A program made the translations under genes and the position numbers. A model generated the notes under the pieces. It was not told the DNA's origin. It searched no databases and saw only the letters and a list, made by a program, of their open reading frames with translations. A stretch of 64,000 nucleotides of DNA from Comamonadaceae bacterium (lineage in GTDB: Bacteria > Pseudomonadota > Gammaproteobacteria > Burkholderiales > Burkholderiaceae_C): contig CANBWP010000002.1 of the NCBI GenBank assembly GCA_947373185.1, positions 124,001 to 188,000 on the forward strand. Direction: 5' to 3'. Below, in pieces: positions 16,982 to 18,621 of this stretch (position 1 is the first letter of the stretch; each line of letters opens with the position of its first letter).

Positions 16982-16987
16982 TATAAT
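16982..16987 (+). promoter_or_regulatory. TATAAT -10 element of the small lipoprotein gene
   Basis: A perfect TATAAT about 113 bases upstream of the lipoprotein ATG. A matching -35 box is not evident. It would give a leader of about 105 bases that contains the two hairpins listed next. Confidence 0.5.
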
Positions 16988-16997
16988 TCGAGGCTGG

Positions 16998-17023
16998 ACA
17001 GCAAGAGCTCGAGTGCTTGCTGT
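16998..17023 (+). promoter_or_regulatory. leader hairpin 1
   Basis: Perfect 8-base inverted repeat ACAGCAAG / CTTGCTGT with a 10-base loop, in the predicted 5' leader of the lipoprotein gene. No T-tract follows, so it is a structural element rather than a terminator. Confidence 0.55.
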
Positions 17024-17052
17024 TCTGTCAACGAGGCCTCAACGTCTCGATG

Positions 17053-17076
17053 ACAATTTCCCGGAAATTGTTTTTT
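17053..17076 (+). terminator. leader hairpin 2 with T-tract (possible attenuator)
   Basis: ACAATTT / AAATTGT with a CCCGG loop, running directly into six T. It lies 24 bases before the lipoprotein ATG and just upstream of its AAGGAAAA ribosome binding site. The shape is that of an intrinsic terminator, but the stem is AT-rich, so read-through is likely. It could instead protect the mRNA 5' end. Confidence 0.5.
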
Positions 17077-17099
17077 CACTAACTTTAAGGAAAATAATC

Positions 17100-17312
17100 A
17101 TGAACAAGTCCCTCGTTTTGGCTGCCGTGATCGCTGCTGCTGCTTTGGCTGCTTGCGGTAAAAAAGAAGAAGCCGCTCCTGCACCAGCACCCGCTGCTGC
17201 TGCCCCTGCTGCTGACGCTGCTGCACCTGCAGCCGCTCCTGCTGCTGATGCTAAGCCAGCTGACGCTGCTGCACCTGCAGCTGCTGCTCCTGCAGAAGCT
17301 CCTAAGAAGTAA
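17100..17312 (+). CDS. small Ala/Pro-rich lipoprotein
   Basis: A 70-residue protein missed as a separate ORF by the track (buried in 16914..17312). The N-terminus MNKSLVLAAVIAAAALAAC is a lipoprotein signal with lipobox LAAC, Cys19 being the lipidated residue. The mature part is a charged GKKEE followed by about 45 residues of Ala, Pro and Asp in loose APA/AADA repeats and a KK end. Such low-complexity sequence is expected to be extended and unstructured. A good AAGGAAAA Shine-Dalgarno, a structured leader and three terminator hairpins behind the gene suggest an abundant, tightly bounded transcript. I do not recognise a function; retention in the inner or outer membrane is undecided. Confidence 0.82.
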   Translation: MNKSLVLAAVIAAAALAACGKKEEAAPAPAPAAAAPAADAAAPAAAPAADAKPADAAAPAAAAPAEAPKK

Positions 17313-17333
17313 TTCTTGGCAGTCAAAGAAAAA

Positions 17334-17416
17334 CCCCGCAATGCGGGGTTTTTTTTCATCTGTAGCCCGCAATGCGGGTATTTTTTCATCTGTACCCCGC
17401 AATGCGGGGTTTTTTT
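17334..17416 (+). terminator. three tandem intrinsic terminator hairpins
   Basis: Three copies, 30-31 bases apart, of CCCGCAATGCGGG followed by a T-run. Copy 1 is at 17334-17356 (8 T), copy 2 at 17366-17386 (TA then 6 T, shorter stem) and copy 3 at 17395-17416 (7 T). The spacer TTCATCTGTA recurs between copies, so this is a tandem duplication of one terminator. T-runs lie only on the plus-strand side, so it ends the lipoprotein transcript and not bamC. Confidence 0.88.
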
Positions 17417-17472
17417 CGTCCCCTTTCAGGGCAAAGGAGGGTGCCATATGAAGCTTGGCACCCTTGTGAAAC

Positions 17473-18621
17473 TTACTTGATTTCGTCAGCCAGGAGTTTG
17501 ATGATCTTCTCGGCATTGATCGACGTCTCAGGCAAGCCGTCAGCGGCTTGAACCACCACCGTAGAGACTTCGCCTTTGCTGGTGAGGGCAATGCGGTACT
17601 TGGCCAAAGCGGGTGTTGCCTTTTCACTGCTGAACATCTTGGCAAAGAAGCCTGGCTCTTTATCAGGGCCACCTTGCGGTGCGTAGCGCACAAAGAACAC
17701 GCCTTGTGCGCGGTCTCGGTCTTCCACTGTGAAGCCTGTGCGGTCAATGGCAACACCGACTCGGCGCCATGCACGGTCAAAGCCATCTTTGATCTCGATG
17801 GAAGACAACTTGTCCACTTTGATGACCTTCACGTCAGCGGCCATGCCACTGGCCACTGGGGTTGTTGCACTTGTCATGGGCGTGCTGACAGTTGCACTGG
17901 CATTGATGCTGGTTTGGCCACCCAATTTCAACATCAAACGACGCAAGAATTCAATTTCCAGTTCCGGGTCTGTTGGGCGAGCCGTCCATGCGGTGGTGCT
18001 GTTAAGGGGGCCCGTGTAGACCTCGATCATGCCGCGGTGGGTGATGGTGATTTCCAAACCTTTGGCAGTCCGTTCAACGCGCGTGCGGAACTTGTCGCGC
18101 TCGCCTGTGGAGTAGAAAGTGTCCAAGACTTTGCCCAGTGCTTTGCGCAGCATGTCTTGGGGCAGTTTGGCGCGATTTTCAGCCCAGTCTGTTTCCATGA
18201 TGCCCAAATCTTGTTGGTCCAAGGTGAGCACGAAGCCATTTTCTTTCCAGAATTCTTTGAGCGGTTCCCAAACGGCGTTGGGGCTCATGTTGATGCTCAA
18301 TACACGCTGATTGCCCATGCGATCGATGCGCGCTTCACCCGCTTGGTTGGTGGCCGTGCCCGTGTCGGTGCTGGTCCGAACAGGGCCAGCACTGGCATTG
18401 GCAACAGCCAGTGCACTGGTGGCGCCGCTGATGAAATAACGACTGTCTCTCTTGATTTGTGTCAGATCGGGCGGTACTTCCAGCGTCGGCAAGGGCTTGC
18501 TGGCGCTTTTGTAATTGATTTTTTCTTCCTCCAACGTAGAGCAGCCAGTCAGTTGGCAAACCACGGTGGTCGCGAGGGCCAATGCAGTCAAATGGCGAAG
18601 GTGAGGCGCAAATCGATTCAC
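17473..18621 (-). CDS. bamC: outer membrane assembly lipoprotein BamC
   Basis: Lipoprotein of the BAM complex that inserts beta-barrel proteins into the outer membrane. From the GTG at 18621 it is 382 residues. AGGA seven bases upstream supports this start, and the 491-residue track ORF is over-extended into dapA. A lipobox LTGC gives lipidated Cys27. An unstructured N-terminal stretch with KPLPTLEVPPDLT, as in BamC, is followed by two helix-grip domains (about residues 100-215 and 275-380), linked by a Ser/Thr/Ala-rich segment. It lies 38 bases downstream of dapA, the classic dapA-bamC order. Confidence 0.9.
   Translation of the reverse strand: MNRFAPHLRHLTALALATTVVCQLTGCSTLEEEKINYKSASKPLPTLEVPPDLTQIKRDSRYFISGATSALAVANASAGPVRTSTDTGTATNQAGEARIDRMGNQRVLSINMSPNAVWEPLKEFWKENGFVLTLDQQDLGIMETDWAENRAKLPQDMLRKALGKVLDTFYSTGERDKFRTRVERTAKGLEITITHRGMIEVYTGPLNSTTAWTARPTDPELEIEFLRRLMLKLGGQTSINASATVSTPMTSATTPVASGMAADVKVIKVDKLSSIEIKDGFDRAWRRVGVAIDRTGFTVEDRDRAQGVFFVRYAPQGGPDKEPGFFAKMFSSEKATPALAKYRIALTSKGEVSTVVVQAADGLPETSINAEKIIKLLADEIK

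Follow-up and report, generated by a model that had tools for sequence, protein, structure and literature searches.

Tandem tripling of a predicted terminator between a small lipoprotein gene and convergent bamC in a Comamonadaceae genome, and a conserved leader RNA on the same transcript

The analysed window, a stretch of 64,000 nucleotides from the draft genome of a Comamonadaceae bacterium, shows three near-identical hairpins in series between a gene encoding a 70-residue lipoprotein and the convergent bamC gene (stop codon 17473). This array is very probably a conserved bidirectional terminator tripled by tandem duplication, which would act as a serial fail-safe lowering antisense transcription into bamC. 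It shows how one conserved terminator can give rise to a tandem one, more than 50 relatives documenting the ancestral state; the change is rare but of an ordinary kind. The features of this region are the following:

17100-17312, + strand: gene encoding a 70-residue Ala/Pro-rich lipoprotein (MNKSLVLAAVIAAAALAACGKKEE...), an open reading frame with lipobox LAAC; an orthologue is present at the genus loci whose start could be read
17325-17356, + strand: predicted terminator copy 1, with an A-tract, CCCCGC-AAT-GCGGGG and T8; its left flank matches the orthologues, and it is also a predicted - strand terminator
17365-17386, + strand: predicted terminator copy 2 (weakened), GCCCGC-AAT-GCGGGT, then A and T6
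17394-17416, + strand: predicted terminator copy 3, ACCCCGC-AAT-GCGGGGT and a T-run, with the ancestral right flank CGTCCCC retained (compare L004, the nearest relative read)
17473-18600, - strand: bamC, the convergent neighbour (PF06804, E 8.6e-36), with orthologues in 58 of 60 genus genomes; its start codon is not fixed

The array (17334-17416) contains three exact CCCGCAATGCGGG matches at 17335-17347, 17366-17378 and 17396-17408, each followed by a T-run and separated by periods of 31 and then 30. Tandem Repeats Finder reports 17333-17416 with a period of 30, 88% matches and a score of 147, the top score in the window. The spacer TTTTTTCATCTGTA is present twice (17351-17364 and 17381-17394), and after the third hairpin TTTTTTTCGTCCCC is found in its place; both internal spacers have CATCTGTA at their end and the third copy runs into CGTCCCC. 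An earlier reading, made from the sequence only, had described three near-identical hairpins with T-runs behind the lipoprotein gene, recurring every 30-31 bases with the same spacer: the exact matches and Tandem Repeats Finder bear out the hairpins, with the corrections that the period is 31 first and 30 second and that the shared spacer applies only to the two internal ones. Between the array and the bamC stop codon, at 17436-17468 of the window, there is also a long hairpin, GGGTGCC...GGCACCC, with no T-run; it is absent from the nearest relative, which has a different hairpin at that place.

In those 58 genomes bamC served to locate the orthologous place, and the intergenic sequence was read wherever the contig permitted. 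The conserved terminator is never present more than once in the 54 other orthologous tails of the genus that were scanned. By automatic count, 50 of 55 tails show exactly one terminator-like hairpin; the remaining ones are the window's own, with three hairpins, three tails with one extra, unrelated hairpin, and one whose longer-loop terminator was missed by the count and in which a single terminator is visible. Tandem CCCGC hairpins are found in one of 90 genus genomes, the window's own.

Close relatives show one terminator, AGTCAAAGAAAAA-CCCCGC-NNN-GCGGGG-TTTTTTTT-CGTC, flanked by AGTCAAAGAAAAA...TTTTTTTTCGTC and with a loop that differs between species. Since the ancestral left flank survives ahead of copy 1 in the window and the right one behind copy 3 (CGTCCCCTTTCAGGG, versus TGTCCCTTCAATGGG in L004), one conserved terminator was expanded by tandem duplication, and since the species-variable loop is AAT in all three copies, these are younger than the loop change. 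The spacer letters CATCTGTA match neither ancestral flank well. Most relatives show CCCCGC/GCGGGG, whereas copy 2 has no outer G-C pair and shows TA at the start of its T-run; it appears to have lost the pair and gained the A after the expansion. The array is not ancient and represents a lineage-specific tandem expansion of an ordinary terminator, and the local pattern together with the single-terminator orthologues excludes a chance resemblance. The array is not taken for a mobile or dispersed repeat, since the genome has the hairpin pair at a single place, and of the spacer-like matches (at most two mismatches) elsewhere in the same genome the three examined are not terminator arrays.

Each of the three copies shows the GC-rich hairpin, short loop and T-run of an intrinsic terminator, copy 2 marginally since an A interrupts before T6, and they lie in series on one strand, as in a tandem terminator array. 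Folding gives forward hairpin energies of -18.7 kcal/mol for copy 1, -10.0 kcal/mol for copy 2 and -12.5 kcal/mol for copy 3; the low stability of copy 2, its lost outer pair and the TA agree with its earlier description as decayed. A global fold pairs copies 1 and 3 (-48.2 kcal/mol, versus -41.6 kcal/mol for the local hairpins), but in co-transcriptional folding the local hairpins should be favoured. T-runs on both strands are found at copy 1 only: its A-tract pairs with its own T-run, so that it would be able to serve both genes, and on the reverse strand it reads GCGGGGTTTTTC (-16.3 kcal/mol, T5). Copies 2 and 3 show neither an A-tract nor an opposite-strand T-run, and would therefore help to stop only those transcripts that run from the lipoprotein gene toward bamC.

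The array combines traits of two known kinds of terminator. Tandem or clustered terminators, of which rrnB T1-T2 is one example and Mycobacterium smegmatis gyrA another, share with it successive hairpins that act in series behind a gene; the array differs from them in that its copies are a recent duplication of one element and not unrelated hairpins. At M. smegmatis gyrA, a tandem pair of hairpins is cited as terminating more efficiently than each hairpin by itself (PMC8355165). Bidirectional intrinsic terminators between convergent genes, which are marked by A-tracts (PMC12207403), resemble the array in the GC-rich stem, the 3-nt loop, the T-run and the A-tract upstream of copy 1, whereas the array shows three near-identical head-to-tail copies, of which copies 2 and 3 lack an A-tract and are one-way.

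The lipoprotein has no Pfam or NCBIfam match over the cut-off, and its orthologues in the family have roughly 57-130 residues. Its gene is apparently very highly expressed, to judge from codon usage: the codon adaptation index (CAI), calculated with eight ribosomal genes of the same genome as reference and taken here from 70 codons of which over half encode alanine, is 0.86, versus 0.70-0.80 for all eight reference genes. Among 46 ORFs of the window the median is 0.60 and the highest value 0.77, and 5000 synonymous redraws from window usage reach at most 0.80, all below the lipoprotein gene. The bias is extreme, with GCT representing 70% of the alanine codons versus 16% in the window. These values lend indirect support to the very strong transcription that had been read from the redundancy of the hairpins, but relatives with the same gene have only one terminator behind it. 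Likewise, the suggestion that the array keeps transcription out of bamC gains from the added copies being directed only that way, although the single terminator of the relatives indicates that redundancy is not required.

The proposed sequence of events would start from a single bidirectional intrinsic terminator between the highly expressed lipoprotein gene and convergent bamC, expanded to three copies, probably when replication slipped on a unit of about 31 bp that forms a hairpin. RNA polymerases coming out of the lipoprotein gene would first encounter copy 1, the strongest, and the few that read through it would then reach copies 2 and 3, so that the array as a serial fail-safe would reduce antisense transcription into bamC. 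For transcription the other way, with a T-run at copy 1 only, bamC would still have one terminator. This model takes it that each hairpin terminates, which is predicted in vivo for all the copies, that the lipoprotein gene is highly expressed and that read-through has consequences. That selection maintains the extra copies is rather doubtful. A mild benefit is supported by the direction of the added copies, which act one way only, by the codon bias and by a Ramlibacter triplet that follows an OmpA gene; however, copy 1 alone should be strong and relatives manage with one terminator, so the gain is possibly tiny, and the decay of copy 2 suggests weak constraint.

The alternative in which the hairpin unit was duplicated twice by near-neutral slippage, copies 2 and 3 having no measurable effect and the array being due to decay or vanish, is an evenly balanced prospect. 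It shares the structural claims of the fail-safe model, termination included, and differs from it on selection only. The restriction of the array to one species, with a single copy elsewhere, and the already weakened copy 2 fit this alternative; against it, two intact copies persist and the added copies face only toward bamC. Among 84,980 species genomes, a scan in which the stem CCCGC and a loop length of 3 were fixed, which undercounts tandem terminators generally, and which possibly omitted the window's own genome records, two other places show the tandem stem with two hairpins, each with a T-run. One is in Ramlibacter rhizophilus (L069 86-168, - strand), where three copies, repeated with a period of about 31-32, immediately follow an OmpA-type gene. 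This triplet is independent of the window's array and lies likewise behind an outer-membrane protein gene, which counts against near-neutrality, but two cases prove nothing. The other, in a Bacteroidetes MAG (L070 4464-4760), consists of six or more CCCCGC terminator-like hairpins that are degenerating, and shows that such units can expand further, as near-neutral slippage would have it. No tandem form of the commoner GCCACC terminator of the family is found in 401 family genomes, and a literature search on duplicated terminators and Burkholderiales leader RNAs found nothing closer. Removal of copies would allow a direct test here of whether selection or neutrality accounts for additional terminators behind strongly expressed genes.

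An artefact of the draft assembly is very unlikely: the genome is in 73 contigs and the array is found in one genome only, but its 84 bp are shorter than a sequencing read, it lies well inside its contig (C2:141334-141416) and the copies are not identical. Also very unlikely is that the array gives rise to short RNAs derived from terminators, as the sequence-only reading had also offered, or acts as an RNA sponge. Hfq or ProQ could bind the three identical hairpin loops and their U-runs, but the region shows no promoter-like site, the array is not conserved and is missing from all relatives, termination at copy 1 would leave little RNA from copies 2 and 3, and the Rfam leader-type matches at the array reflect generic terminator hairpins, none reaching its gathering threshold (at most 38.7 versus 50 for Leu_leader, 21.2 versus 55 for Thr_leader and 27.9 versus 47 for rimP).

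The same transcript would begin with a conserved leader RNA, which, as a candidate for new biology, ranks above the terminator. Its features are the following:

16982-16987, + strand: -10 element TATAAT of the lipoprotein gene; 55 leaders of the genus have TATAAT or TACAAT ahead of them
16988-17099, + strand: structured 5' leader RNA, indicated by covariation and a covariance-model match of 8.4e-22, with no matching Rfam family
16992-17029, + strand: helix P1 of the leader, with an invariant UCGAGU in its apical loop
17032-17049, + strand: helix P2 of the leader
17052-17072, + strand: helix P3 of the leader (CAAUUUCCCGGAAAUUG)
17087-17091, + strand: Shine-Dalgarno sequence AAGGA

Promoter scoring found no consensus -35 element and no consensus promoter for the lipoprotein gene. 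Throughout the genus the leader is conserved, and its fold comprises three helices (window z-score -3.2), with the compensatory base changes across relatives expected of a structured cis-acting leader. In the genus alignment of 55 sequences, 14 of 28 pairs are changed on both sides, with 193 such cells versus 66 in shuffles, and sliding the pairing partners abolishes this signal. The family-wide alignment of 50 sequences, which had been fitted to the structure, shows 17 of 28 pairs changed on both sides (189 cells versus 58 in shuffles). The hairpin CAAUUUCCGGAAAUUG is nearly invariant and P3 consequently shows little covariation in the family. Transcription attenuation at P3 is unlikely, since the U-run is not conserved in the family (for instance TTGTTCACC in L092), and is also disfavoured by the weak stem of -5 to -6 kcal/mol; a switch between P3 and the Shine-Dalgarno sequence, drawn by eye, is unsupported beyond about four pairs outside the genus.

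P1 begins about five bases after the -10 box and is therefore expected right at the 5' terminus of the mRNA. Protection of stable mRNAs by 5'-terminal stem-loops has been reviewed (PMC7509114), and the leader resembles the E. coli ompA-type stabilisers in that P1 starts about at the expected transcription start of an apparently abundant envelope-protein mRNA; its invariant loop and P3 sequences, however, exceed the needs of simple stabilisation, and this conservation suggests an additional binding partner. That an undescribed structured leader RNA before small lipoprotein genes sets gene output or mRNA stability, the tripled terminator being a lineage-specific add-on to a high-output unit, is a real possibility, somewhat short of an even one. 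The covariance model finds the leader in 60 of 301 family genomes, and a wider model finds it in 51 of 201 genomes and in 40 of 141 family genera, nearly always once per genome. At the family loci outside the genus whose downstream gene was read, it precedes the same kind of small Ala-rich lipoprotein gene. Outside the family, matches come from one genus of the order only, in which CAATTACCGGTAATTG, a compensated form of P3, stands ahead of the lipoprotein orthologue (L103 1380-1640, - strand), so that the unit formed by leader and lipoprotein gene is probably older than the family.
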